From contig JAIWOG010000303.1 in assembly GCA_020217035.1 (NCBI GenBank), forward strand, positions 1 through 18,239: a DNA stretch of 18,239 bases, written 5' to 3'. The translations under genes were made by a program, and so were the position numbers. The stretch comes from Magnetospirillum sp. GTDB lineage: Bacteria > Pseudomonadota > Alphaproteobacteria > Rhodospirillales > Magnetospirillaceae. Positions 1 to 17,130 of this stretch are shown here, piece by piece. Position 1 is the first letter of the stretch. Every line of letters starts with the position of its first letter. The notes beneath the pieces were generated by a model, which was not told where the DNA came from, made no database searches, and saw only the letters and a program-made list of their open reading frames with translations.

Positions 1-317
<317 letters not shown>

Positions 318-372
318 CTAGCCTTCGGAATAGGTCGGCGGGACATCGGTCTCCGCCTCTGCTCCCATAGAG

Positions 373-387
373 GCAATGGGCGTGCCA
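373..387 (-). promoter_or_regulatory. Sigma-54 promoter of nifH
   Basis: On the minus strand the site reads TGGCACG-CCCA-TTGC, a perfect match to the -24/-12 consensus TGGCACG-N4-TTGC. The predicted transcript start is near 362, giving a leader of about 65 nt before the nifH ATG. Two NifA activator sites lie 71-105 bp further upstream, the usual distance. Confidence 0.93.
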
Positions 388-419
388 ACTTTTCGAAACA
401 ACGAAAAAATAAATAAAAA

Positions 420-432
420 CAATATATTGATA
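420..432 (-). promoter_or_regulatory. IHF binding site between nifH promoter and NifA sites
   Basis: The plus-strand sequence CAATATATTGATA is the reverse complement of the full IHF consensus WATCAANNNNTTR with no mismatch. It lies in an AT-rich stretch between the -24/-12 element and the NifA sites, where IHF bends DNA so that bound NifA can reach sigma-54 polymerase. The match is read directly. Binding is inferred. Confidence 0.7.
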
Positions 433-457
433 TGTTTTGTGGGGTGGTTTTGGCAGG

Positions 458-473
458 TGTCGGGAAGCCGACA
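458..473. promoter_or_regulatory. NifA upstream activator site 1 (nifH/draT)
   Basis: TGTCGGGAAGCCGACA matches the NifA site TGT-N10-ACA, with the extended palindrome TGTCG-N6-CGACA seen at other promoters in this window. The site is symmetric, so it can serve nifH to the left and draT to the right. Confidence 0.9.
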
Positions 474-476
474 CAC

Positions 477-492
477 TGTTGCAAGCCACACA
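477..492. promoter_or_regulatory. NifA upstream activator site 2 (nifH/draT)
   Basis: TGTTGCAAGCCACACA fits TGT-N10-ACA, but its inner bases are less symmetric than those of site 1. It starts 19 bp (about two helical turns) from site 1, so both would face the same side of the DNA. It lies about 60-75 bp upstream of the draT -24 element. Confidence 0.75.
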
Positions 493-549
493 TTGTCCTT
501 CAAAAATTGTGGATATTTCCGGAAAGGCGCGGTTTCCCTCTTTGCTGCG

Positions 550-565
550 GGGCACAAAAATTGCA
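550..565 (+). promoter_or_regulatory. Probable sigma-54 promoter of draTG
   Basis: GGGCACA-AAAA-TTGCA has the invariant GG-N10-GC spacing and a perfect -12 element. The -24 element differs from consensus at its first and last bases. A start near 576 would give a leader of about 24 nt before the draT GTG. The NifA sites at 458-492 are at normal activator distance. Confidence 0.75.
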
Positions 566-599
566 TGGTGCACAAGGGCAAGGATGGGAGAGTGACGGC

Positions 600-1412
600 G
601 TGACAGCGAAGCAAAAGCGCAGTTTCGGCCAGTCCACCAATCTGGTGGGGCTGCCCACCGAGCTTCTGGGGTGTCGTGAATTCAACGACTATCCCCAGGA
701 CATGCACATTTCCGGTGCCCGCGAAATGAACAAAAGCCTGTTCGAGATGCTGTCGCAGGCGCCCGACCTCGCTGATGCCGGCATCGCCTTCCACGCTTAC
801 ATGCATGCCATGTTCGGCACCGATCCCGACCAGATGGAAGGCGGCGGCAAGGCGCGGCGCTACCGTTCGTCGTTCCTACGCCTGTTGAAAGGATGGGGCT
901 ACGACAGCAACGGGCCGGAAGGCGCGGTGCTGAAAGGCTGGGTGCAAAGCCGCTTCGGCTTGTTCCCCACCTACCACAAGGCCGTCATCGACCGCATCTC
1001 GGGGCCGGTGTGGACGGCTTATGTGGAAGAAAAGATGTCGTCGCGCTTCCACAACAACGCCATCCACACCCAGTTGGACATGCTGTACGAATTCTGCCAA
1101 TGGGCCTTGGCCAGTTTCGTGGCGCCTGGGCAAAAGCACATCACGCTCTATCGCGGCACCAATTCCTTCGATGAACATCAGATTGTCGAACGTCTGGACC
1201 GCCGTCGGGTGGTCATGCGCATCAACAACCTGGCGTCGTTTTCCGAACATCGCGACGTCGCCGGCTGTTTCGGCGACATCATCGTTACCGCCCAGGTCCC
1301 GGCGGTGAAGGTGGTTTTCTTCAACTCGCTGCTGCCCATCCATCCGCTGAAGGGCGAAGGCGAGTATCTGGTCATTGGGGGCGAGTATCTGGTGGACGCC
1401 AGCTACCTTTAG
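600..1412 (+). CDS. draT: NAD+-dinitrogen-reductase ADP-D-ribosyltransferase DraT
   Basis: Transfers ADP-ribose from NAD+ to the target Arg of NifH and so switches nitrogenase off after ammonium addition or energy loss. The protein has 270 residues and a GTG start at 600. GGGAG lies 9 nt upstream, and homology to DraT (SFGQSTNLVGLPT) begins just after this start. A longer in-frame reading from 432 has no DraT-like sequence before residue 57 and would run across the promoter. The R-S-E pattern of ADP-ribosyltransferases is visible: R185 in TLYRG, S213-F-S215 in ASFSEH, and E253-x-E255 in KGEGEYLVIGG. draG follows after 14 nt, so the two form an operon. DraT activity is known to be controlled by PII proteins, and glnK is at the other end of this window. 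Confidence 0.96.
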   Translation: MTAKQKRSFGQSTNLVGLPTELLGCREFNDYPQDMHISGAREMNKSLFEMLSQAPDLADAGIAFHAYMHAMFGTDPDQMEGGGKARRYRSSFLRLLKGWGYDSNGPEGAVLKGWVQSRFGLFPTYHKAVIDRISGPVWTAYVEEKMSSRFHNNAIHTQLDMLYEFCQWALASFVAPGQKHITLYRGTNSFDEHQIVERLDRRRVVMRINNLASFSEHRDVAGCFGDIIVTAQVPAVKVVFFNSLLPIHPLKGEGEYLVIGGEYLVDASYL

Positions 1413-1426
1413 GAAAGACGGGTTCG

Positions 1427-2308
1427 ATGGAACAACAGATCCCTATGCTTGAACGAGCCTTGGGGGCTTACCTGGGATTGGCCGTCGGCGACGCCTTGGG
1501 CGCCACGGTGGAATTCCTGACCAAGGGCGAGATCCAAAGCCAATACGGCGTGCACCGCAAGATGGTCGGCGGCGGCTGGCTGCACCTGCCGCCGGGCCAG
1601 GTCACCGACGACACCGAGATGTCGCTGGCCCTGGGCCGTTCGCTGATCCGCATGGGCCGCTTCGACGCGGTGGACACCTGCGACGAATTCGCCGCCTGGC
1701 TGAAATCGGGGCCGGTGGACATCGGCAACACCTGTCGGCGCGGCATCCGCCGCTACATGCTGCATGGAACCGTCGACGGTCCGTTCTGCGACGGCGACGC
1801 TGGCAACGGCGCCGCCATGCGGGTGCTGCCCCTGGCCTTGGCCAGCCTGAACCAACCCGACCGGGTCGAGCCCTGGACCTTGGCCCAGTGTCACATCACC
1901 CACAACCATCCGCTTTCCGACGCGGCATCGCTGTGTATGGTGCGCATGGTCCAGGCCCTGTTGCGGGGCGAGGGCATGCGTGGCGCCAGGGCCATCGCCA
2001 CCCAATTGGTAGACCAGCACAAAAGCTTCAAGTTCGAGGTGTTCAAGGGCCAAAGCACGGCCTATGTGGTCGACACCATGCAGACGGTGCTGCATTTCTA
2101 CTTCGTCACCGATTCGTTCCAGGATTGCCTGATCCAGACGGTGAACCAGGGCGGCGACGCCGACACCACCGGGGCCATGGTCGGCATGCTGGCCGGCGCC
2201 ACCTATGGCGTGACCGCCATCCCGCGTGCCTGGTTGGGCAAGTTGGACAAGGGCGTGGCCGACGAGATCCGCGACCAGGTGCCGAAATTGCTGGCCATCG
2301 GGGGGTGA
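1427..2308 (+). CDS. draG: ADP-ribosyl-[dinitrogen reductase] hydrolase DraG
   Basis: Removes ADP-ribose from the modified NifH Arg and so restores nitrogenase. It has 293 residues, the normal length for this dimetal ADP-ribosylglycohydrolase family. Metal-ligand motifs are visible in order: GLAVGDALGA (17-26), TDDTEM (60-65), the central NGAAMR (127-132), THNHP (158-162), and GGDADTTGAM (242-251) with D244 and D246. The start is the ATG at 1427, with AGGAAAG 9 nt before it. In relatives DraG is held at the membrane by a GlnK-AmtB complex under ammonium excess, and both partners are encoded at the right end of the window. Its stop lies one base from the stop of the convergent ArsC-like gene. 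Confidence 0.97.
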   Translation: MEQQIPMLERALGAYLGLAVGDALGATVEFLTKGEIQSQYGVHRKMVGGGWLHLPPGQVTDDTEMSLALGRSLIRMGRFDAVDTCDEFAAWLKSGPVDIGNTCRRGIRRYMLHGTVDGPFCDGDAGNGAAMRVLPLALASLNQPDRVEPWTLAQCHITHNHPLSDAASLCMVRMVQALLRGEGMRGARAIATQLVDQHKSFKFEVFKGQSTAYVVDTMQTVLHFYFVTDSFQDCLIQTVNQGGDADTTGAMVGMLAGATYGVTAIPRAWLGKLDKGVADEIRDQVPKLLAIGG

Positions 2309-2309
2309 T

Positions 2310-2729
2310 TCAGGCCGCTGGCGGCGGGCAGGGCGAGGCGGTTTCGTGCTTGGGGCAGCCTTCGCCGACGCCCGAGGCGTTCAGGCCGATCCAGGCGGCG
2401 ACCTTGGCTTCGTCCCAGCCGACCATGCGGTCTTCCCCCACCTGCATCAGCGGGCGGCGGATCAGCAGGTGGTTTTCCTGCAGCAATTCCAGCGCCTTGG
2501 TCGGCCCCAGCCGCTCGGGGACGATTTCCCCCGACTTCACCTGCGGCGCGGCGCGGTTGAACCATTCGGCCACCGGCAGGCGACCCAGGAAGGCCAGCAA
2601 CTGGGCGCCGCTCCACGGATGCGACAACAGGTCGCGGACCTCCAATTGATGTCCCGAATCCGACAATGTCTTCTTTTGCCGGGCATTGCCGCCACAGCCG
2701 GGCTTTTCATAGAAGATCACAAAGGCCAT
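2310..2729 (-). CDS. ArsC/Spx-like nitrogenase-associated protein
   Basis: A 139-residue thioredoxin-fold protein of the arsenate-reductase/Spx type. It matches the group annotated as nitrogenase-associated protein, related to NifO of Azotobacter. FYEKPGCGGNARQKK (6-20) aligns with the ArsC active-site loop, with the single cysteine C12. The segment ERLGPTKALELL and the later LLIRRPLM (88-95), with its conserved Arg-Pro, are typical of the family. The last 20 residues are Pro/Ala-rich and carry two more cysteines. No function has been shown for this group. The start ATG has GGAGTGA upstream. It follows the heme oxygenase gene by 19 nt, so it probably belongs to the bacteriophytochrome operon. 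Confidence 0.82.
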   Translation of the reverse strand: MAFVIFYEKPGCGGNARQKKTLSDSGHQLEVRDLLSHPWSGAQLLAFLGRLPVAEWFNRAAPQVKSGEIVPERLGPTKALELLQENHLLIRRPLMQVGEDRMVGWDEAKVAAWIGLNASGVGEGCPKHETASPCPPPAA

Positions 2730-2748
2730 GGGTCACTCCGGGACTGCG

Positions 2749-3339
2749 TCAGCGAGGAACGACGGGCCTTTCCACGAACCGGTCGAACCAAGTGGCGATG
2801 TCGTCGAACAACCGTCTTGCCGCCGTGATCGCCAGGTCCTGCTGATGGGAAGGGCAGGTCGCCTCGGCCAAGCAGCAAAATCGGTGCCAGGTGTCGGGAT
2901 CGTTGCGGCCGAAGAAGGCCATCGGCGCCCGCTTGCCCAACTGGGCCTGGATCCGTGGCGCCAGGACCGCCGCTCCCATCACCGAGCCTTCCAGCACGTA
3001 GCGCATGCCCACATACTCGGGCAGGTCCGCGGGCAGGGTGCCGGGCCATTGTGGCAGGTTGCCGGGCAAGTGGTCCAATTGCTTCAGGTCGTCGGTCAGC
3101 AGGGCGGCCCGAGCCAGCGGCAATTCGGCGAAGGCCGCCATGGCGGGGGTTTGGTGGCAGGCGGAAAACGCCCGTTCCAGCGGCTGGTGCACGCCCAGCA
3201 AGGCCCGCAGGACCAGGGCATAGCTGTCCTGGGTCAAGCTGCCGTCCACCAGTGGGCGCATCAACGGGTGGCGGTCGACCTTGTGGTGGCCCTGACGGGT
3301 GCCCAGGCGCAGGGCGTCGCGCAAACCGCTGTCAGACAC
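2749..3339 (-). CDS. bphO: Biliverdin-producing heme oxygenase (BphO-type)
   Basis: Cleaves heme to biliverdin, CO and iron. Biliverdin is the chromophore of the phytochrome encoded just upstream. The chosen start is the GTG at 3339, giving 196 residues, usual for bacterial heme oxygenases. It overlaps the end of the kinase gene by 8 bases, which suggests translational coupling. A longer reading frame starting at 3423 adds only out-of-frame kinase sequence. Visible signatures are LRLGTRQGHHK (10-20) with the candidate proximal heme ligand H18 in the T-x3-H pattern, and RYVLEGSVMGAAV (113-125), the distal-helix motif usually written EGSxLGG. The pairing with bphP is classical. Its place inside a nif cluster is not. 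Confidence 0.87.
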   Translation of the reverse strand: MSDSGLRDALRLGTRQGHHKVDRHPLMRPLVDGSLTQDSYALVLRALLGVHQPLERAFSACHQTPAMAAFAELPLARAALLTDDLKQLDHLPGNLPQWPGTLPADLPEYVGMRYVLEGSVMGAAVLAPRIQAQLGKRAPMAFFGRNDPDTWHRFCCLAEATCPSHQQDLAITAARRLFDDIATWFDRFVERPVVPR

Positions 3340-5617
3340 CGGCTGACAGCCGCTCGGGGGGGAACAGCAGGATGACGCGGGTGCCCATACCCGGCTCGCT
3401 TTCCAAGTGAATGGTGCCGCCATGCAATTCGATCAGCGACTTGACGATGGGTAGTCCCAGTCCGGTGCCGCGGCGGGTGATGTCGATCGTGTCGTCCCCC
3501 TGGCGGAAGGGTTCCAGCACCCGTTGCAGCAAATTGGGGGGAATTCCCTTGCCGCTGTCGGCGATCTCCAACCTAAGGCCGCCATCGTCCTGCCGGGCGG
3601 CGATGATGGTGATGGTTCCATCCGCCGGGGTGAACTTGATGGCGTTGGACAGCAGGTTGATGACCATTTGCAGCATCATCCGCCGATCGGCCCAAAGTGG
3701 CGGCAGATCGGGGGCAAGGACCAGGTCCAGGCGGACATGGGCCTCGCGCAACAGCGAAGACATCAATTGCCGGGAATACTCGCACAAGGCGGCCAGGTCG
3801 ACCTTTTCCTCGTTCAGGTCGAATCCGCCGGCCTCGATCTTGGACAGGTCCAGCACGTCGTTGATCATGGACAACAGGTGCCGGGCAGCCTCCAGGATGT
3901 TGTCGACGCTACCTTTCTGCCGTCCGTTCAACGGGCCGTAAACTTCCATGGACAACAATTCGCTGAAGCCCAGGATGGCGTTCATCGGCGTCCGCAACTC
4001 GTGGCTCATATGGGCCAGGAAGCGGGATTTCGCCTTGTCGCTTTCCGCCAGTTGCAGGTTCAGGTTCTTGATGGTCCGCATCTGACGCAAGATGACGTCG
4101 TTGAGCGCCGTGCGCAGCGAGCGGGCGATCTCGATCTTCCAGTCCGGCCAGGGACGGGAATGACCACGCTTGACCTCCACCCAGCGTTCGAAGGACTGGC
4201 GGGGCAGATAGTCGCCCCGATCCTTGTCGATCCGGACCTGGCAGGGCGACTTGCCGCCCCAGATGGTGGTGCGCACCGTCTCGGGACGGAACCACATGAT
4301 CATGTGTTGCGCCCAGTCGCCGACGGAAATGCCCAAGACGCCGCTGGCGGTCGCCGTGTGGTCGGCGAATTCCGGCAGGTGCTGACTGATGCAGTCGCTG
4401 GCGTAGACACCGTTGACCAGATTGCGGCGGCAGAATTCCGCCAAATGGATCACTGCCGCGCTGTTCGGCGCACTGCCGACGGTGCGCACTTCCAGCGGGC
4501 GGCCGCTGCCGTCGTCATAGACCACCGCCGCGCCCGACGAGGCGAAGAAGATGTCGGTCAGCTTGACCTCGCCTTCGACCAAGGGCGAGACGAAGTCGTC
4601 GGCGCCGGCGATCTGTTCCAGCAGACGGGCGTGCAGGATGGTGTGCAGCGCCCGCGCGTCCTTTTCCTCGGCGGTCTCGCAGGCATGCAGCGCCAAGGCG
4701 TAGGTCTGGGTCAAGCCCATCACCCGGTGTCTTGCGCCTTGGCTGACCCGGTGTGATTGGCGATGGTGCCCCACCACCAGCCCCCACAACGCGCCGCCCG
4801 AGATGATGGAGGCGGAAAAGGAACCGTCCACCCCCAGGTTGCGCTGATAAAGGCGATGCATGGGGGAAACCGGACGTGCCCGGCAGCGCCCCAGGTTGTA
4901 AGGACGGCCACTTCGCGGGTTGATCGGGTGGTTCAAGGGCGAATCCCGGTAATCGCGTGACGGCGTGAACCGCAGCGGAGCCCGCAGATAAAGGGTGCGG
5001 GCTTGCGCGGGGATGTCGTCGGCGGGGAAGTGAAAACCCTTGAAGCTTTCGTCGAAATCGGCGGCCAGGCTTTCCCCCAGGACCGAGCCGTGGCCTTCCT
5101 TGTCGAAGCGGTAGACCAGCACCCGTTCCATGCCGGTCAGCAGCCGCAAGTTGTCGCACAGGATTTGGCTGAGCGCTTCCAGCGAGGTGGCGTCGCGCAT
5201 GCGCTGCATGGCGTCCAGCACGATCCACATGTCGCGGGCGTGGTCGTGGTCGCAGTCCTGGCTGGGTTCGATCTCGCACAGCAAGACCTCGTCTTCCATA
5301 TGCAGGAACAACTCGGCGCCGTAAGGCGGCCAGTTTTCGGCGCCCAGTTCCAGCAAGATGCCGTTGTCGTGTCGGGCGCGGCCGTCGTCGCGGGCGTCGC
5401 GGATTTGCCGAAGGCATTCGGCGGGCAGCAAGCCGTCCAGACGGCCCGGAAAGGGACGCTCGGCGCTGTGCGGCCAAAGATCGGCGGCATTATCCGAATA
5501 AGCCAGGATGTCCAGGCTATCAGGATCGGCGCAGACCAGCAGCACATGGGGTTGGACGCTGCCTGGCGCGTGGATGGGTTCTTGTTCGCAAGGAATTGCG
5601 GAAGGAATGGTGTTCAC
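3332..5617 (-). CDS. bphP: Bacteriophytochrome sensor histidine kinase
   Basis: A 761-residue cytoplasmic red/far-red photoreceptor kinase. Order: PAS domain (about 15-125), GAF (about 140-310), PHY (about 325-500), dimerisation/phosphoacceptor domain (about 530-600) and ATPase domain (about 645-755). C10 in CEQEPIHAPGS is the biliverdin-binding cysteine position. PADDIPAQAR (198-207) corresponds to the usual PASDIP motif, with Ser replaced by Asp and D201 kept. SPMH (H254) and GHH (284-285) are the conserved chromophore-pocket histidines. PRQSF (472-476) and the upstream WGG belong to the PHY tongue. H539 in HMSHELRTP is the phosphoacceptor. N658, DSGKGIP (687-693) and GTGLGLP (717-723) are the ATP-binding boxes. 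There is no receiver domain and no response regulator next to it, so the output partner is unknown. The start is a GTG with no clear Shine-Dalgarno sequence. Confidence 0.95.
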   Translation of the reverse strand: MNTIPSAIPCEQEPIHAPGSVQPHVLLVCADPDSLDILAYSDNAADLWPHSAERPFPGRLDGLLPAECLRQIRDARDDGRARHDNGILLELGAENWPPYGAELFLHMEDEVLLCEIEPSQDCDHDHARDMWIVLDAMQRMRDATSLEALSQILCDNLRLLTGMERVLVYRFDKEGHGSVLGESLAADFDESFKGFHFPADDIPAQARTLYLRAPLRFTPSRDYRDSPLNHPINPRSGRPYNLGRCRARPVSPMHRLYQRNLGVDGSFSASIISGGALWGLVVGHHRQSHRVSQGARHRVMGLTQTYALALHACETAEEKDARALHTILHARLLEQIAGADDFVSPLVEGEVKLTDIFFASSGAAVVYDDGSGRPLEVRTVGSAPNSAAVIHLAEFCRRNLVNGVYASDCISQHLPEFADHTATASGVLGISVGDWAQHMIMWFRPETVRTTIWGGKSPCQVRIDKDRGDYLPRQSFERWVEVKRGHSRPWPDWKIEIARSLRTALNDVILRQMRTIKNLNLQLAESDKAKSRFLAHMSHELRTPMNAILGFSELLSMEVYGPLNGRQKGSVDNILEAARHLLSMINDVLDLSKIEAGGFDLNEEKVDLAALCEYSRQLMSSLLREAHVRLDLVLAPDLPPLWADRRMMLQMVINLLSNAIKFTPADGTITIIAARQDDGGLRLEIADSGKGIPPNLLQRVLEPFRQGDDTIDITRRGTGLGLPIVKSLIELHGGTIHLESEPGMGTRVILLFPPERLSAGV

Positions 5618-5645
5618 TGTCGCAATACGAAAGTTTTAATTGGTA

Positions 5646-5658
5646 GCTCAGTCTGAGC
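5646..5658. promoter_or_regulatory. Palindrome upstream of bphP
   Basis: GCTCAG-T-CTGAGC is a perfect 6-bp inverted repeat around one central base, 29 bp upstream of the bphP GTG. It lies in the only stretch that could hold that gene's promoter. The symmetry suggests an operator for a dimeric regulator, but no regulator is identified. Chance occurrence is possible. Confidence 0.3.
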
Positions 5659-5708
5659 CCAAATCCTGGTGATCGCAAGGACTGAGTTCCGCGTCATGCG
5701 CAAAGAAA

Positions 5709-5732
5709 GGGGGCGCCCCGAAGAGCGCCCCC
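5709..5732 (-). terminator. Rho-independent terminator of the nifB-ferredoxin operon
   Basis: GGGGGCGC and GCGCCCCC form an 8-bp GC-only stem with an 8-nt loop, 28 bp after the stop codon of the [2Fe-2S] ferredoxin. Read on the minus strand, the stem is followed by TTTCTTTG. It separates the nif operon from bphP on the same strand. Confidence 0.85.
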
Positions 5733-5759
5733 CCGATATCGATCCGCGTGCTTCCGCCA

Positions 5760-6143
5760 TCAACGCCGCAGATCGATCTCGACCCCGGCTTCGCCGGAGA
5801 ACTCAACCAGGATGTCTTCGTCCCGCACGATGTACTGGCACGCCAGACGGTAGGGCGGGGGCATGTCTTCCACTTCGGTCTTGGCCAACAGATCCTTGGA
5901 CAGCTTGCCGTTCACCGACAAGGTCAGCTTTTCCTTGTCGGTCAGGTGGATGGCCTTGGGGGCGTTGGGGCCCAGATGGGTCACCTTGATCAGGCACGAG
6001 CCGCACTCGCCGTCCTGACACTGGAACGGGATTTCGATGTTGTTGGCCTTGGCCACCGCCAGAAGGGTGCCGTTGTCGCCGGCGACGGCGTAGACGGTGA
6101 TGTTCTTGGCAAGCGTCGGTCCGCTGAAGGTTACGTTGGCCAT
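5760..6143 (-). CDS. [2Fe-2S] ferredoxin, nif-associated
   Basis: A 127-residue plant/adrenodoxin-type ferredoxin. Cluster ligands C42, C47 and C50 lie in CQDGECGSC, with C102 in RLACQY (pattern C-x4-C-x2-C...C). The N-terminal part (VTFSGPTLAKNITVYAV) is the beta-grasp start seen in FdxC/FdxD-type nif ferredoxins. It probably carries electrons within nitrogenase assembly or delivery. Which specific paralogue it represents cannot be settled here, so no symbol is given. The ATG at 6143 has AAGGAG 9 nt before it. It is the last gene of the nifB operon, 34 nt after the SIR2-like gene and before a strong terminator. Confidence 0.9.
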   Translation of the reverse strand: MANVTFSGPTLAKNITVYAVAGDNGTLLAVAKANNIEIPFQCQDGECGSCLIKVTHLGPNAPKAIHLTDKEKLTLSVNGKLSKDLLAKTEVEDMPPPYRLACQYIVRDEDILVEFSGEAGVEIDLRR

Positions 6144-6177
6144 CTTGGAATTGCTCCTTGGGGATTTGTCGGAAGGG

Positions 6178-7044
6178 TCACAGAACCGGGGCTGTCGCCA
6201 CCAGCACCTCGGCCGCCTGGGCCAAGGGCATGGAAACCGGGATGATGTTCTCGATCTCCATGAACTTCTTCTCGTTGGGGGTCAGGTCCTCCATGGGCAC
6301 GATGGCGTAGCGCGGCCCCTTGGAATGCTTGGTCAGACAGCGGGCGAAAGTGCGCAGGATCTGGTCGTAGAAACGGCAGCCGATGAACACGAAGCCCATT
6401 TCGGCGCGGCGCTGCTTGACCGTCTCGGGGATCGGCGTCTGGATGTCGATGTCGGTCAACACCTCGACGTAATCGGCGTCCGATGCCAGCACGTCGCCGG
6501 CCGGCTGGGCGGCGCCGTGCGGCTTGTAAAGCACGGTCGAAGCCTTGGCGCCGTCGTCATAGCCCATCTCGGCGCCATCGGGGGCATAGGCGCGGAACCA
6601 CGGCGCGTCGCCGGTGCGCCGGGCCTTGGAGGTGCCCTGGAACAGCGCCCAGTCGGATCGGGCCTCGCCCAGGGCCTGGGCCATGGTTCCGTCGTACCAG
6701 GTGTCGACGATCAGCGGCAATTGGGTGCGGCCGGCCAGCCAGCGGTGCAGGGCGCTGGGTTGGGGAACCGGCTTGAAGATTTCCAGCATCAGCTTGTCCA
6801 GCGTCACCCGGTGCCGGAACGTCTCGATGTATTGGGCGGTGTGCCACATGTTGTTGCGGATGCGGCCGGGCACCGCCACCCGCTTGCACAAGCGCTGTGA
6901 CAATTCCCGCGCCCCCGTCGGCACCGGCCAGGGTTCGGGGGTCAGGGTCAGCACTTCGGGGCCCAGGAAGGGCACCAATTGGCCGGCCACGATCCGATGC
7001 CCCAGATCGGTGACGAGTTCAACGGGGGAGACGGGAACGTTCAT
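6178..7044 (-). CDS. SIR2-like domain protein in the nif operon
   Basis: A 288-residue soluble protein whose motif order resembles the SIR2_2 branch of NAD-binding proteins. GQLVPFLGPEVL (21-32) stands where the glycine-rich GAG-type loop lies. IVDTWYDGTM (112-121) aligns with the family's TTNYD segment. VLYKPHGA (171-178) corresponds to the K-x-H-G motif, with H176. GFVFIGCRFYDQILR (217-231) matches the late GfSlxD segment. The catalytic Asn of TTNYD is Trp (W116) here, so NAD+ cleavage is doubtful and a binding or assembly role is possible. It starts 4 nt after the nifT stop, tightly inside the nif operon, so a role in nitrogen fixation is likely but unknown. SIR2 assignment is by motif reading only. 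Confidence 0.72.
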   Translation of the reverse strand: MNVPVSPVELVTDLGHRIVAGQLVPFLGPEVLTLTPEPWPVPTGARELSQRLCKRVAVPGRIRNNMWHTAQYIETFRHRVTLDKLMLEIFKPVPQPSALHRWLAGRTQLPLIVDTWYDGTMAQALGEARSDWALFQGTSKARRTGDAPWFRAYAPDGAEMGYDDGAKASTVLYKPHGAAQPAGDVLASDADYVEVLTDIDIQTPIPETVKQRRAEMGFVFIGCRFYDQILRTFARCLTKHSKGPRYAIVPMEDLTPNEKKFMEIENIIPVSMPLAQAAEVLVATAPVL

Positions 7045-7048
7045 GGGC

Positions 7049-7264
7049 TCAATCCTCGTCGTCGGCGAGCTTGCGGGCGTCGACGGTGATGGGCAGCGGG
7101 GTGTCCGCCGGCATGTCGGGCATCTGGAACGACCAGCCGTTGCCGATCTTGATCACGCCGCCCCAAATGCCGGGCTTTTCCGTTTCGACGACTTTTTCTT
7201 CCAGGTCCTTCTTGGGGACATAGATTTCGTAATAGTCATCGACCTTACGCAGGGTCACCTTCAT
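7049..7264 (-). CDS. nifT: NifT/FixU family protein
   Basis: A 71-residue small protein of the NifT/FixU family. Recognisable features are the start MKVTLRKVDDYYEIYVPKKDLEE, cited here only in part, and the core GGVIKIGNGWSFQMPDMP with the acidic tail ADDED. The function is unresolved. Deletions in other diazotrophs have little effect, and a link to nitrogenase maturation is assumed. Its ATG overlaps the nifZ stop (ATGA), so translation is coupled. nifZ-nifT adjacency is the standard arrangement. Confidence 0.93.
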   Translation of the reverse strand: MKVTLRKVDDYYEIYVPKKDLEEKVVETEKPGIWGGVIKIGNGWSFQMPDMPADTPLPITVDARKLADDED

Positions 7265-7530
7265 TGCGGCTTCTCCATGCTTTCGATTTCGTGCGTGCGC
7301 ATGCCGACCAGCATGCCGCGATCCACGAAGTCGATGGCGTAGACATAGAAGCGGTTCAGGAAGGTCCCTACCGACTTCACATAGCCCACGTCGCCCCGGT
7401 GGATCAGGAACGCCCCCATGGCATGGCCGGGATAGGTGCCGTCGTTACGGACTTCCTTGGTGGCCTGAACCTTTTCCCCCGGTTCAAAGGCCGGTGGGCT
7501 GTAAAGTTCGCTGGCTTCGGCTTCGACCAT
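7261..7530 (-). CDS. nifZ: Nitrogen fixation protein NifZ
   Basis: An 89-residue NifZ family protein. FEPGEKVQATKEVRNDGTYP (15-34) and the later GDVGYVKSVGTFLNRFYVY, cited in part, are family hallmarks. NifZ acts with the chaperone system in forming the second P-cluster of the MoFe protein in Azotobacter. It starts 15 nt after the ferredoxin stop with GAGG upstream, and its stop overlaps the nifT start. Confidence 0.94.
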   Translation of the reverse strand: MVEAEASELYSPPAFEPGEKVQATKEVRNDGTYPGHAMGAFLIHRGDVGYVKSVGTFLNRFYVYAIDFVDRGMLVGMRTHEIESMEKPQ

Positions 7531-7545
7531 TGGGGGCCTCGCTGA

Positions 7546-7734
7546 TTACGCCTTGACGATGCAGTTTTCGACCGGGCAGACGGCGATGCACTTCGGGTCG
7601 TCGCCGTCGCATTCGGTGCAGGCCGACGCCTTGATGACATAGGTCTCGCCCTTCATGGCGATGGCCGCGTTCGGGCATTCGAATTCGCAAGCGCCGCAAG
7701 CCGAGCAGGTGGAGGTGGTGATCTTCAGAGCCAT
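7546..7734 (-). CDS. fdxN: 2[4Fe-4S] ferredoxin, FdxN type
   Basis: A 62-residue bacterial-type ferredoxin. First cluster ligands: C10, C13, C16 and C20-P. Second set: C39, C42, C49 and C53-P, with the 6-residue insert between the second and third Cys (ECDGDDPKC) typical of nif-linked FdxN ferredoxins. C58 is extra. In Rhodobacter and Rhodospirillum relatives this protein is a main electron donor to NifH, and it also has a role in NifB-dependent cofactor synthesis. The ATG at 7734 has AGGAG upstream. It sits 27 nt after nifB. Confidence 0.92.
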
Positions 7735-7761
7735 GGCGGTTCTCCTGGTTGGGGGTAAAAC

Positions 7762-9234
7762 TTAAGCGATGGAACCCATCACCACCTCGTTGGTGCCGTT
7801 GATGTCGGCGTACCAGCGGGCGATGGCGGTTTCGATGTATTCGAAGGGGTAGGAATCGATGGCGGTGATGCCGGCGGCGGCCAGATCCTTCTTGGGGCAC
7901 GATCCGATCTTCGACACGAAGACCGCCTCGATGCCTTCCAGGGTCGGGATCAAATTGTCTTCCAGCACGTCGTCGTCGCCCCAGCCGCCCTGGCAGTAAT
8001 TGTCCACCTTGCGATGGCCGACGAAGCGCACGCCGTCATGGTCCACTTCGTAGACCTGGAACTCGCTGGCATGGCCGAAATGCTGGTTGACGCGGCCGCC
8101 GCCCTTGGTGGCGACGGCGACCAGACGGGCGGGCGCGGCGGTGTGCGACAGGGTGTCCTCGGCGATGGCGACGGCGGCGTTGCGGTCGGCGCGTTCACGT
8201 TCCACCACTTCGCGGTAAAGCCGGCGGGCTTCGGGGTCGTAGATCACGTCGGAATCGATCTTGTCCATGGTGAAGTCCTGGGACAAGTCCTCGCCCAGCA
8301 TGCCCACCGCGTCGGCGCGGCACTGGCGGCAGTGGCGCATCAAATTGGCGCCGCCGGCCAGCTTGTCTTGCAGGTCCTTCAACTCGGCGGCCGTGGGGCC
8401 GCGCTGACCGGTCAAGCCGAAATGGGTGCCGTGGGCCGGGTCGGAAATCAGCGGCATGACGTTATGCAGGAAGGCGCCGCGCTGCTTGATGGCGGTGTTG
8501 ACCTCCAGCAGGTGCTGGTCGTTGATCCCGGGGATCATCACCGAGTTCACCTTGACCAGGATGTCCTTTTCCTTCAGGCGCTCCAGGCTTTCCATCTGGC
8601 GTTCATGCAGGATCTTGCTGGCGTCCAGGCCGGTGTAGCGCTTGCCGTTGAAATAGATCCACGGATAGATACGCGTGCCGATCTCGGGGTCCACCATGTT
8701 GATGGTGATGGTGACGTGGTCGATGTTGTGGTCAGCCAGCTGGTCGATGTGGTCGGGCAGGGCCAGGCCGTTGGTGGACACGCAGAACTTCAAATCGGGC
8801 AGGCGCTTTTCCACCTGGGCGAAGGTCTCGAAGGTCTTGCGCCAGTCGAACATGGAATCGCCGGGGCCGGCGATGCCCAACACCGACAGTTGCGGCACCT
8901 TGTTGGCCACCGCGACAACCTTCAAGGCCGCCTGTTCGGGCGTCATGCGCTCGCTGGTGACGCCGGGGCGCGATTCGTTCGAGCAGTCATATTTGCGATT
9001 GCAATAATTGCATTGGATGTTGCAAGCCGGCGCCACCGCCACATGCATGCGGGCGAAATAGTGGTGGGCTTCTTCCGAATAGCACGGATGGTCCTTGATC
9101 TTGTCCCATACGTGGTCGGGCATCTCGCCCTGCGCAGCGCTGCTGCCGCAGGACGACTTGGTGGAACAGCCGCTGGTCTGGGGCTGGGCGTCACCGCGTT
9201 TGGTGATGCTTTGCAGGGAAACGATGTTGGACAC
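7762..9234 (-). CDS. nifB: FeMo-cofactor biosynthesis protein NifB
   Basis: Radical-SAM enzyme that builds NifB-co, the carbide-containing [8Fe-9S] core of FeMo-co. It has 490 residues, the full two-domain length. The radical-SAM motif is C71-NIQ-C75-NY-C78, within VAPACNIQCNYCNRKYDC. AGPGDSMFD (122-130) is the SAM-binding region. HCRQCRADAVG (301-311) holds two further cluster-binding cysteines. The NifX/NafY-like domain begins near 370 with LVAVATKGGGRVNQHFGHA. The start is a GTG at 9234, with GGAGG at good distance. It is the first gene of a six-gene operon with its own sigma-54 promoter. Confidence 0.98.
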   Translation of the reverse strand: MSNIVSLQSITKRGDAQPQTSGCSTKSSCGSSAAQGEMPDHVWDKIKDHPCYSEEAHHYFARMHVAVAPACNIQCNYCNRKYDCSNESRPGVTSERMTPEQAALKVVAVANKVPQLSVLGIAGPGDSMFDWRKTFETFAQVEKRLPDLKFCVSTNGLALPDHIDQLADHNIDHVTITINMVDPEIGTRIYPWIYFNGKRYTGLDASKILHERQMESLERLKEKDILVKVNSVMIPGINDQHLLEVNTAIKQRGAFLHNVMPLISDPAHGTHFGLTGQRGPTAAELKDLQDKLAGGANLMRHCRQCRADAVGMLGEDLSQDFTMDKIDSDVIYDPEARRLYREVVERERADRNAAVAIAEDTLSHTAAPARLVAVATKGGGRVNQHFGHASEFQVYEVDHDGVRFVGHRKVDNYCQGGWGDDDVLEDNLIPTLEGIEAVFVSKIGSCPKKDLAAAGITAIDSYPFEYIETAIARWYADINGTNEVVMGSIA

Positions 9235-9273
9235 CGGCAGCCTCCAATTCAGGGGTCTCTGCCAAAGGGTGTT

Positions 9274-9288
9274 GCAACAGGGATGCCA
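9274..9288 (-). promoter_or_regulatory. Sigma-54 promoter of the nifB operon
   Basis: On the minus strand the site reads TGGCATC-CCTG-TTGC, differing from TGGCACG-N4-TTGC only at two bases of the -24 block. The start is expected near 9262, about 28 nt before the GTG. A NifA site lies only about 46 bp upstream, closer than at nifH. Confidence 0.85.
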
Positions 9289-9333
9289 ATTTCAGAATGG
9301 CGGAAATTAAGGGCTTTGGATGGTTTTGTCGCT

Positions 9334-9349
9334 TGTCGCATCCCCGACA
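9334..9349. promoter_or_regulatory. NifA upstream activator site of nifB
   Basis: TGTCGCATCCCCGACA is TGT-N10-ACA with the extended TGTCG...CGACA form. It is also the left half of a larger hairpin (9334-9369), whose right half, CGTCAGGGATGCGACA, is a one-mismatch second copy of the same site. Confidence 0.88.
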
Positions 9350-9369
9350 GCGGCGTCAGGGATGCGACA
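9334..9369. repeat. Inverted repeat spanning the nifB activator region
   Basis: TGTCGCATCCC (9334-9344) and GGGATGCGACA (9359-9369) are perfect inverse complements of 11 bp. After one C-A mismatch, GAC/GTC extend the pairing around a loop of about 6 nt. It lies between the nifA terminator and the nifB promoter, and it overlaps one perfect and one near-perfect NifA site. Confidence 0.85.
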
Positions 9370-9379
9370 GGAAAAGCAC

Positions 9380-9403
9380 AAGGCCGGCCCATTGGCCGGC
9401 CTT
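9380..9403 (-). terminator. Terminator of nifA
   Basis: AAGGCCGGCC and GGCCGGCCTT form a perfect 10-bp stem with a 4-nt loop, 22 bp after the nifA stop. On the minus strand the stem is followed by GTGCTTTTCC, a moderate U-run. Confidence 0.8.
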
Positions 9404-9425
9404 GGGGGCAAAAATGCCAAGCCGG

Positions 9426-11105
9426 TTACAACTGACGGATTTCGATGTCGTATTTCTTCAGCGCATAGCCGATCTGGCGCGGGGTCAGCCCCAACAGGCG
9501 GGCGGCCTTGGCCTGGACCCATCCGCACCGCTCCATGGCCTGGATCAGGCGCGAACGCTCGTCCAGGGAATTCAGATCGACTTCCGTTGCCGGTTCGTCG
9601 TTCCCGGCGGCCGGGGGCGCGGGTGTCGGCGACGGCGACGGCTCGCGGTGGGGGGCGGTGGGGGCGGGGACGAACTGGCTGGTGCCTTGCCCCTGGCCCG
9701 GCTTGCCGTCCCAAAGCGTGGACGACAGGCACAAATCGCGGCGGCACGACAGGTCGATCTCGTCGATGACGTCGCCTTGCGCCATGGTGGCGGTGCGGTA
9801 GATGCAATTTTCCAGCTCGCGCACGTTGCCGGGGAAATTACAGCGTTGCAGGGTTTGCAGGGCCTTGGCGGTGATGCCCACCTTGCGGCCGTTTTCCTGG
9901 TTGAACGCCTTAAGGAAATGGTCGGCCAGCAGCGGGATGTCGCCGTGGCGTTCGCGCAAGGGCGGCAGGAAAATGGGCACCACGTTCAGGCGGAAATAAA
10001 GGTCGGCGCGGAACTCGCCCTTGGTCACCGCCATTTCCAGGTTGCGGTTGGTGGCGGCGACCAGTCGGACGTCGACCTTGATGGTCTTGGCGCCGCCGAC
10101 CCGCTCGAATTCGCCTTCTTGCAAGACGCGCAGCAACTTGGACTGGAAATTGGCGGAAATCTCGCCGATCTCGTCCAGGAACAGGGTGCCACCATTGGCC
10201 AGTTCGAAGCGGCCTTTGCGGTCGGCCACGGCGCCGGTGAAGGCGCCTTTTTCATGGCCGAACAATTCCGATTCCAGCACGCTTTCCGACAAAGCCGCGC
10301 AATTGACCTTGACGAAGGGTTTGTCGGCCCGCTTGGACAGCATGTGCACGGCGTGGGCGACCATTTCCTTGCCGGTGCCGCTTTCGCCGCGCAGCAGCAC
10401 GGTGGCCTTGGTCGGCGCCGCCTGCTGCACCTGGGCGAAGACGCGGCCCATGGCGTCGGACGTGCCGACGATCTCATCCAGGCCGGCGGCTCGGGCGGCG
10501 GGCTTGATCTTGATGACCTGCTTTTGCAGTCGGGCGTTATCTTCCATCAATTGTTCGCGGTCGGCCAACACTTTCCGGTAAAGGCCGACGGTCTGGCCGA
10601 TCAGGGTGCCGACCATGGTCAAGAAGCGGATGTCGTGCTGGAAGCCGCGAAGGGCGCCGCTTTCCCGGGACCGCATCACCGAAAGCGTGCCGAAGGGCTT
10701 GTCGTTGGTTTTGACCGGAACGCACAGGAAGGCCAGGGAATCGTCGTCGGGGTCCAGGAACTCGGCGACGTAATCGGCCAAGCTGGGTTCGCCCACGGCG
10801 CTGGGCACCACCATGGGCATGGACCCTTCCAGCACTGGGCGGATGGCGTCCATGGGGAACTTCAGTCCGCCGTCGCGGGCTTCGCGCAGGCCCATGCCGG
10901 TCACGGCGGCCAGGGTTTGCTGGCCGGTGCCGTCGTCCAGGGTGACGACGCCGTGGCGCATTTCCAGGTAGGACGCCAGGATGTTCAAGACGTCGTGCAA
11001 GGATTTGTCCAGGTCGAAGGTCGACCCCAACAGCTTGCCGATCTCGTAGATGCCGATGAGATGGGCTTCGCTGTCCTCGTTGCGCGTCTTGTTCACATTA
11101 CCCAT
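9426..11105 (-). CDS. nifA: Nif-specific transcriptional activator NifA
   Basis: Sigma-54-dependent activator of the nif genes. Domains: GAF (about 15-180), AAA+ (about 210-450) with Walker A GESGTGKE (240-247), the sigma-54 contact loop GAFTGA (287-292) and Walker B LFLDEIGE, a Pro-rich linker, and a Fis-type helix-turn-helix at the C terminus (about 520-557). Cysteines 422, 434, 454 and 459 give exactly C-x11-C-x19-C-x4-C, the signature of oxygen-sensitive alphaproteobacterial NifA. The start chosen is the ATG at 11105 (559 residues), because GGGGTGA sits 5 nt upstream. A GTG at 11114, three codons earlier, is the alternative. A NifA site upstream suggests autoregulation. Confidence 0.96.
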
Positions 11106-11192
11106 GCGCGTCACCCCAATGCTGCCGAATTAGGCACGCCCTAAACGTGATTAACTTTTAGACTTTAGCGCTTGGTGAAGTGTTTCGTCCAG

Positions 11193-11208
11193 TGTCGGCA
11201 ACCCGACA
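11193..11208. promoter_or_regulatory. NifA-type activator site upstream of nifA
   Basis: TGTCGGCAACCCGACA is a perfect TGT-N10-ACA site in the extended form, about 90-100 bp upstream of the nifA start codon. No GG-N10-GC sigma-54 element could be found between this site and nifA on the minus strand, so its promoter is unclear. Confidence 0.8.
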
Positions 11209-11227
11209 ATTGCTGCAAATGCGAAAG

Positions 11228-11256
11228 GCGCCCATGCGTTTCGTGCACATGGGCGT
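11228..11256 (-). terminator. Probable terminator of the membrane-protein gene
   Basis: CGCCCATG (11229-11236) and CATGGGCG (11248-11255) pair as an 8-bp stem with an 11-nt loop, 15 bp after the gene's stop. On the minus strand the stem is followed by CCTTTCGCATTT, a weak U-rich tail. Confidence 0.6.
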
Positions 11257-11270
11257 CCTGTTCGGAGGGG

Positions 11271-12776
11271 TCAAGGGGAAACTTGGTAAACCGCGCCGAA
11301 TTCTCCCTGAAACAGCCGCTTCGCCGAAGCAGGAGGAGCATAGCGATCCGGGCGTCCTCCCACCGCCACTCCGCCCGGCAGGTCGGCGTCAACGATGGTC
11401 AGGTCAGCCATGGGCTGATGGGGGGGCAGTTGCGGGACGATCCGTCCGGTGTGAATAAGAATGAAGGCTTGGCTGAGGTCGCTGGCCGCGAAGACGTTTT
11501 TTTCTGGCAGGTCGTTCTTCAGGAAACGCACGAAATCCGAATTCACCACGATGCGGCTGGTGGTGGTCGGTCCCAAGGCCAGCAATCCATGAGTATGAAA
11601 CATGGTGGCCCACACGCTGCGCACCGGGGCGGCCAACCAACCAAGCCATACCAGCGCCAGGGCCGCCGCGATCCATTTTTCCCAGCGGCCAGAGCCTTGG
11701 GGGATGACGGCATGGATGGCGACGGCGATGGGGATGGCGACAACGGGGGCCAACGGCAGCACGTAACGCTGATTCATGGGTTCGTCAAGGAACAGGGCAC
11801 TGAACACGGCAAGGGTGAATGCGCTATAGACGGCGATCAATCCCATGGCCAGCCAAGCGATCCGCTTGGCTGGCCGGGCTAGGCGACCGGACAGCAAGGC
11901 CAAGCTGCCGATGACGGCGATCATGGCGGCGTAAAAAAGCAGCCAACGGAAGTTCGCCAGTTGTGGCAAGTAGAACAGCCAACCGCCGATTTCGTTGCCA
12001 TACGCGACGACGCTGTTCATGAAACCAGCCGGGGTTCCCTTCCAATTGGCGCAAGAGGTCGGGCACCCCGTCAGCGTCCAACTGCGATACATCCACAATC
12101 CGGCGATCGCGATTGCCGGGGCGCTGGCAAGGATGCCGTCACGCAGACGACGTGGAAAATTGCGTGGATTAAGTGGGGACAGGATGGCCAAGCCGGCAAA
12201 GGCGACGATGGCCACCCCGAAATAGCGGGTACCGGCGCATAAGGCCAAACACAAGGCGACGACGGCGACGTTTTTGTCCGGGTGTTGCAGGTACAGTGTC
12301 ACCGCCAACAAGGTGGCGACCACCAATGCGGCATAGGGGCCATCGGTCATCACCCCGACGGTCTGCCACAACACCAAAGGCGGGTGGACCACCGACATGG
12401 TGGCGGCCAGCACGAACAACCAGGTCGGCAGGCGGGCCATTCCCAACAGGCGGGTGGCGCAATAGCCGGCCAGACCCGCGGTGGCGACGCAAAGGATGCG
12501 GGCGGCGTCGATCACCCCCAGGCCAAGCGCCAGCAAAGCGCCGACGACCATCGGAAGCAGGGGCGGCTGCCCGGTCAGCGGGACGCCGGTGCAGTTCACC
12601 AGGCCGTTTCCCCGGGCGAAATTGGCTGAAATGCAGCTGTAGCTGGCGCTGTCCCCGCCATAGGAAATGATCGGTCCTTCGACGGTGACCGAAGTGCCGA
12701 CCATCGCCATGGCCAGGATGGCGAAGAATGGCGCCCAATTGATGTGGTGGTGGGGATCTTGTTGGACGATGGACAT
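11271..12776 (-). CDS. Polytopic membrane protein, GT-C glycosyltransferase-like
   Basis: A 501-residue inner-membrane protein with about ten hydrophobic helices between residues 15 and 390 and a soluble C-terminal part of about 110 residues. The segment YGGDSASYSCISANFARGNG, after the first helix, places acidic residues in the first outer loop, as in GT-C family lipid-linked-sugar transferases. The long row of helices and the C-terminal periplasmic domain also fit. No specific substrate can be named. The ATG at 12776 has no good Shine-Dalgarno sequence. It is neither nif- nor fix-like in function. It has its own terminator and interrupts an otherwise continuous nitrogen-fixation cluster. Glycosyltransferase assignment is tentative. 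The membrane nature is certain. Confidence 0.75.
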   Translation of the reverse strand: MSIVQQDPHHHINWAPFFAILAMAMVGTSVTVEGPIISYGGDSASYSCISANFARGNGLVNCTGVPLTGQPPLLPMVVGALLALGLGVIDAARILCVATAGLAGYCATRLLGMARLPTWLFVLAATMSVVHPPLVLWQTVGVMTDGPYAALVVATLLAVTLYLQHPDKNVAVVALCLALCAGTRYFGVAIVAFAGLAILSPLNPRNFPRRLRDGILASAPAIAIAGLWMYRSWTLTGCPTSCANWKGTPAGFMNSVVAYGNEIGGWLFYLPQLANFRWLLFYAAMIAVIGSLALLSGRLARPAKRIAWLAMGLIAVYSAFTLAVFSALFLDEPMNQRYVLPLAPVVAIPIAVAIHAVIPQGSGRWEKWIAAALALVWLGWLAAPVRSVWATMFHTHGLLALGPTTTSRIVVNSDFVRFLKNDLPEKNVFAASDLSQAFILIHTGRIVPQLPPHQPMADLTIVDADLPGGVAVGGRPDRYAPPASAKRLFQGEFGAVYQVSP

Positions 12777-12865
12777 GCCGACGCTGGGCTGAGTGGAAAG
12801 GCGCGGCGCATCTTAAAGGAAATCAAGCCACTGTCCATGCGCGGGTGTCGCCGCGAACAAGGAAG

Positions 12866-12898
12866 GCGCCCGTCCCCGGTTGGTTCGGTGACGGGCGT
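12866..12898 (-). terminator. Probable terminator of the fix/ferritin-like operon
   Basis: CGCCCGTC (12867-12874) and GACGGGCG (12890-12897) pair perfectly, extended by one G-T pair, with a further short CCG/CGG pairing in the loop. It starts 9 bp after the stop of the ferritin-like gene. The following minus-strand tail CCTTCCTTGTT is only moderately U-rich. Confidence 0.6.
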
Positions 12899-12906
12899 GC
12901 CGGTGG

Positions 12907-13362
12907 TCAGGCCGCCAGACGCACGATCCAGCGTTGGATGGCTTCCACGTGTTCGGCTTCCTCCTCGGTGAATTCCTGCGCCATGGCGCGGATTTCCGGG
13001 TCGGTGGTGCTGTCCAGGATGGACTTGTAGAACGCGTAGCCGCGGGTTTCCGCTTCCAGCGCCAGACGCATGGCTTCCTGGACGCCCATCAGCGGGTCGG
13101 CGCCCCAGATGGCGGCGGCTTCCGGGCTTTCCATTTCCGGCCATTGGAAGTCGTCCGGGTTCATATCCGGCAGGTCGTGATAGCCGCAGCGTTCCTTGGC
13201 CTGCTGGTAATGCATCTGCGAGTAATGGGCCATTTGGGCGAAGAAGTCGGCGACTTCCTTGTTGCCGTGGGTCTTGGCCGCTTCGGTCAGTTCCTTGAAA
13301 CGCAGCACCGCTTCCTGTTCCAGCTTGCAGGCGTAAGCCAGGAATTCGTCAACACTTTGCAT
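12907..13362 (-). CDS. Ferritin-like (rubrerythrin-type) protein
   Basis: A 151-residue four-helix diiron-type protein made of two ferritin half-repeats. It probably handles peroxide or iron near the oxygen-sensitive nitrogenase machinery. The second half-site is complete: E105 in LEAETRGYAFY and E135-x-x-H138 in EEEAEHVEAI. In the first half, E15 and H51 are present, but the Glu expected three residues before H51 is S48 (YSQMHY), so a full diiron site is doubtful. There is no rubredoxin tail. The start chosen is the ATG at 13362, with GAGGA 8 nt upstream. A second ATG at 13377 overlaps that Shine-Dalgarno sequence. It follows fixX on the same strand. Family call is sound. Function is inferred. 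Confidence 0.85.
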   Translation of the reverse strand: MQSVDEFLAYACKLEQEAVLRFKELTEAAKTHGNKEVADFFAQMAHYSQMHYQQAKERCGYHDLPDMNPDDFQWPEMESPEAAAIWGADPLMGVQEAMRLALEAETRGYAFYKSILDSTTDPEIRAMAQEFTEEEAEHVEAIQRWIVRLAA

Positions 13363-13428
13363 GTCGCATGTCCTCATACTTGTCCCGATGGCCGCAACCA
13401 GCCATCAATCCCCCAAGCCGCGCTGACG

Positions 13429-13453
13429 GCCCGCCAAGCAGGGCTTGGCGGGC
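13429..13453 (-). terminator. Hairpin after fixX
   Basis: GCCCGCCAAGC and GCTTGGCGGGC form a perfect 11-bp stem with a 3-nt loop, beginning 6 bp after the fixX stop. No U-run follows (GTCAGCGCGG on the minus strand), so it may be a partial terminator or an mRNA end-protecting stem between fixX and the ferritin-like gene. Confidence 0.6.
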
Positions 13454-13459
13454 TGGTTC

Positions 13460-13753
13460 TCAGCCGAACTTGAACAGGATGCCGTAGCCGCCGCGCGGAT
13501 AGTTCCACTCGATGTCGCCGGTGGCGGCACAGACGATGCGGCAGGTGCCGCATTCCAGGCAGCCGTCGGGGGCCACTTCCACCTGGCCGGTCTCGGTGCG
13601 CGAATAGCAGCCGGCGGGGCAAATCTTGACCAGCGACGCCAGTGCCTCGGTGGGTTGGGTGTGGGGCTTGACGCTGATATGGGGACGGCCTTCGTCCACC
13701 ATGTAGCGGTTCTGGTAGAGCTTTTCCTCGACCTTGATGCTGATCTCTTGCAT
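13460..13753 (-). CDS. fixX: Ferredoxin-like protein FixX
   Basis: A 97-residue FixX, the iron-sulfur partner of FixC in the FixABCX electron-bifurcating complex. Cysteines 65, 68, 71 and 75 ([11 protein letters not shown]) and the earlier C45-PAG-C49 match FixX and the C-terminal domain of ETF-ubiquinone oxidoreductase. The C-terminal [15 protein letters not shown] is a family hallmark. The start is the ATG at 13753, with AGAGG upstream and 10 nt after the fixC stop. An in-frame ATG at 13798 would overlap fixC and adds no FixX-like sequence. Confidence 0.96.
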
Positions 13754-13763
13754 GACGAACCTC

Positions 13764-15065: not shown

Positions 15066-15077
15066 GGTCTGGTCTCC

Positions 15078-16178: not shown

Positions 16179-16191
16179 GTCACTTTCTCCT

Positions 16192-17046: not shown

Positions 17047-17084
17047 GGCCGGGCTCCTTGGCGGAAAATCTGGATATGCTTTTC

Positions 17085-17099
17085 GCAATCCGCGTGCCA
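17085..17099 (-). promoter_or_regulatory. Sigma-54 promoter of fixABCX
   Basis: The minus strand reads TGGCACG-CGGA-TTGC, identical to the consensus. The start is expected near 17073, about 27 nt before the fixA ATG. An IHF site and a NifA site follow upstream in the standard order. Confidence 0.93.
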
Positions 17100-17117
17100 C
17101 TAGATCAAACCAATATA

Positions 17118-17130
17118 AATCAATGTGTTA
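17118..17130 (+). promoter_or_regulatory. IHF binding site upstream of fixA
   Basis: AATCAATGTGTTA matches WATCAANNNNTTR at every defined position. It lies in an AT-rich stretch midway between the fixA -24 element and the NifA site, where IHF-induced bending would act. Confidence 0.75.

Follow-up and report, generated by a model that had tools for sequence, protein, structure and literature searches.

Bacteriophytochromes of solved structure, among them that of Deinococcus radiodurans (chain 8sgk), have a PAS-GAF-PHY-kinase layout with an N-terminal cysteine and DIP, SPxH and PRxSF motifs. Why bacteria without photosynthesis retain phytochromes is for the most part unexplained. PHY photoreceptors have been listed in Magnetospirillum gryphiswaldense MSR-1 and its relatives, the relevant part of that survey giving no pattern and suggesting loose selection or horizontal transfer (PMC6532209). 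A nif cluster is described in Azospirillum amazonense, as is a bacteriophytochrome, the relevant text giving no linkage of the two (PMC3169532). A. brasilense is stated to carry a bacteriophytochrome and red light stimulates acetylene reduction by its strains, the text consulted containing no phytochrome mutant (PMC10383956). Here we describe a bacteriophytochrome gene, bphP, and an overlapping heme oxygenase (HO) gene in the nif region of a Magnetospirillum sp. (assembly GCA_020217035.1, contig JAIWOG010000303.1, positions 1 to 18,239; this whole stretch of 18,239 nucleotides is referred to as the window). The position of the pair is real, is common to the window and MSR-1, and is rare. No report of a nif-adjacent bphP-HO arrangement appears in the titles and abstract openings among the matches listed for bacteriophytochrome with nif, nitrogenase or nitrogen fixation and for Magnetospirillum with phytochrome, a search that mostly did not extend to the subscription literature. 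On the evidence, an inserted cassette with transcription of its own is more likely than a light switch dedicated to nif.

The bphP gene (3332..5617, minus strand) starts with GTG and encodes a histidine kinase, BphP, of 761 amino acids with the domains PAS_2 (residues 10-118), GAF (146-297), PHY (328-512, E 6e-39), HisKA (529-597) and HATPase_c (644-755). The three Pfam models of the photosensory core (PF08446, PF01590 and PF00360) all score above their cut-offs. BphP can be aligned over almost its full length with bacteriophytochromes of solved structure, the match to 8sgk covering residues 9-748 with E 2e-87. C10, which precedes the PAS domain, aligns with the cysteine of 8sgk, and Y169, D201 (D207 in Deinococcus), R216, R248, H254 (H260), Y257 and H284 (H290) are conserved, as is the tongue motif P472-R-x-S-F. 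The Deinococcus numbers, and the roles in biliverdin binding and in the tongue, are those which we take to apply to these positions. C10, the pocket and tongue residues and the H, N, G1, F and G2 boxes of the kinase are invariant in a ten-row alignment. The preliminary description of this DNA saw a complete sensor module with C10, all kinase boxes and an overlapping HO gene; Pfam and the alignments confirm this, and the module is a real one, ordinary in kind.

BphP lies outside the narrower NCBIfam BphP equivalog (NF041576), which it matches over residues 10-506 only and with 234.5 bits against a cut-off of 1040. It differs from the Deinococcus protein in its kinase part, which scores higher against other HisKA kinases (4jas, 137.4 bits; DivL 4q20, 118.9 bits) than against 8sgk (63.2 bits). 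Among NCBIfam kinase models DivJ scores best (192.9 bits, cut-off 1000) and PdhS is a further match, and for the MSR-1 kinase TorS and LuxQ rank first. As all of these matches fall far below the cut-offs no partner is named, and the kinase domain is of the general HisKA type, with DivJ as the nearest but distant model. It had been stated that no response regulator lies nearby, and this stands for the ten window proteins scanned with Pfam, none of which has a receiver domain (E 0.001), the fix genes, the ferritin-like gene, nifW, glnB and an open reading frame (ORF) at 11271-12776 being left out of that scan.

The HO gene (2749..3339, minus strand) encodes a BphO-like protein of 196 amino acids that matches PF01126 with 51 bits against a cut-off of 23. 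A longer ORF reaching 3423 is unlikely; the GTG at 3339 is the better start and gives an 8-base overlap with bphP. In MSR-1 the overlap is ATGA, and in both genomes the overlap suggests translational coupling. Matches of HO to solved structures are weak (best E 0.0025), and its proximal heme histidine aligns with that of heme oxygenase-1 and is retained in MSR-1 and five further rows. All 18 family genomes with an HO (E 0.001) have a PHY domain (E 1e-15), and HO is found in none of the 35 without one; G005 and G049 are the only PHY genomes in the family without an HO match, a weak HO-like stretch adjoining the G049 phytochrome. This restriction supports HO as a supplier of chromophore and not as an iron source for nitrogenase. 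In five public proteins (P0023, P0027, P0028, P0030 and P0033) a phytochrome kinase is joined to a heme oxygenase domain within a single polypeptide, fusions which support a functional pairing of the two.

The predicted course of signalling is that of a conventional phytochrome. HO would make biliverdin, which would attach to C10 of BphP; red or far-red light would then switch the PHY tongue and change autophosphorylation at H539, and the phosphate would pass to a response regulator encoded elsewhere.

Distribution and probable insertion history

The window genome belongs to the same genus as MSR-1, which shares the order nifA-nifB-fdxN-nifZ-sir2-fdx-hairpin-bphP-HO-arsC with draTG opposite. 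In both, the pair is placed between a terminator-like hairpin and arsC, and its earlier assignment to the interval between draG, the arsC-like gene and the nifB operon is correct by Pfam and TIGRFAM matches. MSR-1 differs in having two further PHY matches, whereas in the 94%-complete window genome bphP is the sole PHY match and HO the sole heme oxygenase match. The window assembly has 32 of 40 sampled contigs at exactly 10,000 bases and is therefore probably a binned, cut-up metagenome in which linkage can be judged only within contigs.

The searched sets comprised 55 genomes of the family, 317 of the order and a class sample of 385, the linkage counts for the order and class being lower bounds since fragmented assemblies can hide linkage. 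Full-length or nearly full-length BphP relatives (at least 54% identity) occur in 9 of the 55 family genomes including that of the window, the other eight at 54-63%. MSR-1 has the pair in the identical position. Among the remaining seven carriers, bphP and nifB fall on separate contigs in five and are 249 kb apart in G042, and no nifB match was obtained in G003; the bphP contigs of four of the seven are shorter than 15 kb, with linkage judged inside them. The nif locus of G030 lacks the pair, though this genome has a BphP relative. Paramagnetospirillum kuznetsovii LBB-42, Magnetospirillum sp. UT-4, P. marisnigri SP-1 and XM-1 encode full-length BphPs 53-57% identical to that of the window, likewise with HO adjacent, but on the contigs examined these pairs are not beside nif. 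Their neighbours include MCP, PilZ, Crp-type, HD-domain and receiver-domain proteins and a transposase-like helix-turn-helix protein, and a scan of ten neighbour proteins from relatives' loci finds no domain that recurs as a fixed partner.

Conserved placement near nif, on which the preliminary description built its suggestion of light input, thus extends beyond the window only to MSR-1, and the family carriers largely have the pair at unrelated loci, the finding which that description had set against its own suggestion. Across the order, PHY is present in 44 genomes, nifB in 95 and both in 32; PHY lies within 25 kb of nifB on one contig in two of these 32, the window genome and MSR-1. In the class sample nifB is present in 13 genomes, PHY in 32 and both in eight, that of the window included. 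The two markers are ~21 kb apart in G640 and ~31 kb apart in G558, whose phytochromes are distant and of a different type; they are megabases apart on one contig in G660 and G673, and on different contigs in three genomes. The distant BphP of G558 (28%; L163 8663-10246, minus strand) lies roughly 4-5 kb from nifA (2295-3968). G048 has two different adjacent phytochrome genes (L037 1049-3295 and 3273-6014, minus strand), upstream of which a hemerythrin-domain chemotaxis receptor is encoded (6221-8581).

Between the window and MSR-1 BphP is 63% and HO 55% identical, against 82-98% for 12 neighbouring genes. The substitution rates of BphP (dN 0.31, dS 1.25) likewise exceed those of the 12 genes (dN 0.03-0.13, dS 0.32-0.83), and dN/dS values of ~0.25 for BphP and 0.42 for HO indicate that both are constrained. 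Fifteen reciprocal best gene pairs, some of them doubtful, served as background; their median identity is 71% and 5 of the 15 fall below 65%, so that BphP at 63% is not a clear outlier.

The nif clade containing both carriers comprises six species, two of which have the pair. The other four have the hairpin-arsC junction without it and no PHY match in their genomes; in G031 the junction holds ~200 other bases. Within the nif tree the window groups with G023 and G024 and MSR-1 with G025, and these three relatives lack the pair. The phytochrome tree places the window BphP with P0002, which has 80% identity and comes from a 9.8 kb contig, and the MSR-1 BphP with P0003 and P0004, in one clade (support 100/99) that sits next to P. 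kuznetsovii and BRH_c57. The terminator together with the empty sister loci points to insertion. The fewest state changes for the pair on the nif tree is two, and the single BphP clade with the shared junction favours one insertion with losses. For a shared junction the simplest reading would be a single old insertion followed by several losses; a second insertion or a transfer is also possible. A search of the nif loci of ten relatives for traces of a lost pair gave one weak match, in G028 (32 residues, E 0.017), which was judged spurious.

Hairpin and promoter motifs

The nifB operon has a terminator-like end, formed by a hairpin with a T-rich tail (5707..5734, minus strand) that lies between fdx2 and bphP. 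It is followed by a leader of 89 bases (5618..5706, minus strand) which presumably contains the pair's own promoter. The window hairpin folds at -23.7 kcal/mol, and at -31.9 in context (z -1.96), with 10 of 200 shuffles equally good. Folding was compared with shuffles for the window, MSR-1 and six relatives, and the support ranges from strong in MSR-1 (z -4.05, equalled by 0 of 200) to weak in G024 (z -1.02, 31 of 200). Each of the 13 genus genomes has a G+C-rich inverted repeat and a T-rich tail after fdx2, also where the pair is absent, and arsC lies downstream of it in 12 of the 13, G030 having no arsC match. A scripted search recovered the hairpin at 12 of 14 loci; it missed G029, though an inverted repeat is visible there, and found none in G014, which belongs to another genus. 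The stem sequences differ between groups while the pairing is kept, as expected for a real terminator. Co-transcription of bphP with nifB is weakened by this intervening hairpin, read-through being possible. At the other end of the pair only 19 bases separate the HO stop from arsC, so that bphP, HO and arsC may form one unit, of which arsC is probably the last gene.

The scans for nif promoters used TGT-N10-ACA as the NifA site and the -24/-12 motif of sigma-54 as we take these to be defined. TGT-N10-ACA occurs 12 times in the window against 2.16 expected, a number that none of 200 shuffles reaches. It stands upstream of a -24/-12 match (at most one mismatch) at nifB, at fixA, at a nifW-like gene and, on its nifH side, at draT; at nifB the two sites are at 9334-9349 and 9273-9288 (one mismatch). 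The leader between the hairpin and bphP contains neither motif, and neither is found between fdx2 and bphP. The proposed light input to nif thus retains the shared nif position in two species and loses ground to the hairpin and to the absence of both motifs upstream of bphP. No sigma-70-like promoter match is found in the window leader, and that of MSR-1 has one of 9/12.

A perfect -24/-12 match inside HO and upstream of arsC (2874-2889) was considered as a site of NifA/sigma-54 control; it is absent from MSR-1 and is therefore treated as chance. TGT-N10-ACA sites inside arsC (2650) and draG (1889) recur in MSR-1, but within coding sequence, and a site just upstream of fdx2 (6167-6182) is not among the MSR-1 sites.

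Possible roles of the pair

The pair is probably an ordinary photoreceptor cassette with its own HO, inserted at a labile nif junction, transcribed mainly separately and serving general light signalling rather than dedicated nif control. The cassette would have entered the nif region between the nifB-operon terminator and arsC, and its transcription would start mainly at a promoter of its own and probably run on into arsC. Several observations weigh against this. Receiver-domain proteins lie near the BphP relatives in XM-1 and G030, which makes an output link possible there. The same hairpin-arsC junction is kept in two species despite the 63% identity of their BphPs, which fall in one clade; this also fits one old insertion kept by selection, and could mean a link to nif. 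Among order genomes outside the family, nifB is present in 14 of 24 with PHY and in 34 of 238 without, a comparison uncorrected for shared ancestry. The tail of the window hairpin is imperfect (TTTCTTT) and its fold is matched by the ten shuffles noted above. A simple terminator scan omitted it while listing the MSR-1 hairpin, and the counts of that scan do not rise above shuffles (5 against 6.4; 5 against 6.3). Read-through past the hairpin may occur, and would let NifA-driven transcription reach bphP. Lastly, with two mismatches allowed the -24/-12 motif is not enriched in the window (13 against 10.9 in shuffles), and therefore its absence alone says little.

Dedicated light input appears unlikely, though its probability is not negligible. 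BphP, expressed partly by read-through, would here signal red and far-red light either to nif transcription, at the level of NtrC/NifA, or to DraT/DraG switching, for example to hold nitrogenase back in lit, oxygenated water. The constant position in two species with strongly diverged BphPs would be explained, as would the close spacing with a nitrogenase-associated arsC, and the window genome has no other phytochrome found; maize roots inoculated with A. brasilense showed higher acetylene reduction under red light, in the relevant text without a phytochrome mutant (PMC10383956). However, a terminator-like hairpin separates the operon from a bphP that has no NifA/sigma-54 motifs, the pair is absent from the nif loci of four other species of the nif clade, and in 30 of the 32 order genomes with both markers the two are not within 25 kb, as far as contigs allow; nor is there a receiver-domain gene among the ten window proteins scanned. 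A little less probable again is a single capture of the pair at the nifB operon's end in a small non-photosynthetic diazotroph clade around MSR-1, where it would have been kept because its level is coupled to nitrogen fixation by read-through of the terminator; a microaerophilic cell would learn from it of lit, oxygen-rich water before or while running nitrogenase.

The genus is microaerophilic, and there is a slim chance that BphP signals mainly not by light but as a sensor of redox, oxygen or biliverdin/heme status, its nif position reflecting that role. The genus is non-phototrophic, the photosynthetic reaction centre (PF00124) being found in 0 of 13 of its genomes, for which control of photosynthesis by bphP is accordingly rejected; light and redox sensing by other BphPs is named in a title cited in PMC10383956. 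The photocycle pocket and tongue residues are nevertheless kept, which is hard to explain without photochemistry. It is scarcely credible that HO serves chiefly to free iron for nitrogenase cofactor synthesis, with the phytochrome secondary: HO is located near arsC and the nifB operon, but it overlaps bphP in both carriers and in the family is confined to genomes with phytochromes.

The cassette reading and its competitors can be separated directly, as MSR-1 is a model organism with deletion tools that has the same nif-adjacent pair, making the question of light and nitrogen fixation testable; should the nif link fail, the locus would be a clean example of a misleading gene neighbourhood. An MSR-1 strain lacking ~20 kb with 20 nif-cluster genes is unchanged in growth, magnetosomes and motility, and the relevant text names 16 of the deleted genes (PMC7860042); the unnamed ones may include bphP and its neighbours.

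The surrounding nif region

The minus strand of the window carries nifA, nifB, an fdxN-like gene (named by eye from its sequence), nifZ, a SIR2-domain gene, fdx2, bphP, HO and the arsC-like gene in this order, and plus-strand draT and draG converge on them. The genes nifA (9426..11114; TIGR01817, 686.6 bits), nifB (7762..9234; TIGR01290, 677.7 bits) and nifZ (7261..7530; PF04319) are followed by the SIR2-domain gene of the nifB operon (6178..7044; PF13289), which has the same place in relatives, a SIR2-like gene lying between nifZ and fdx2 in nearly all of the relatives' nifB loci examined. The last gene before the hairpin is fdx2 (5760..6143; Fer2 of Pfam), for a 2Fe-2S ferredoxin. Beyond the pair the nitrogenase-associated arsC-like gene (2310..2729) matches TIGR01616 with 147.7 bits against a cut-off of 109; all of these features are on the minus strand. 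On the plus strand draT (693..1412) matches PF07357 with 333.8 bits over the in-frame stretch scanned, and draG (1427..2308; TIGR02662, 462 bits) is convergent with the arsC end of the bphP-HO unit.

The interval from nifA to the ferritin-like gene contains an ORF for a membrane-protein-like product of 501 amino acids (11271-12776, minus strand). This ORF has no match in the same interval of MSR-1, G023, G024 and G025, and may therefore be another insertion in the window nif cluster. Extra DNA is seen elsewhere in related loci: the nifA-nifB interval holds ~2-3 kb of it in G024 and G031, and the arsC-draG interval ~1 kb in G025 and G031. In G027 a palindromic stretch of roughly 130 bases, recognized by eye, lies between the hairpin and arsC.

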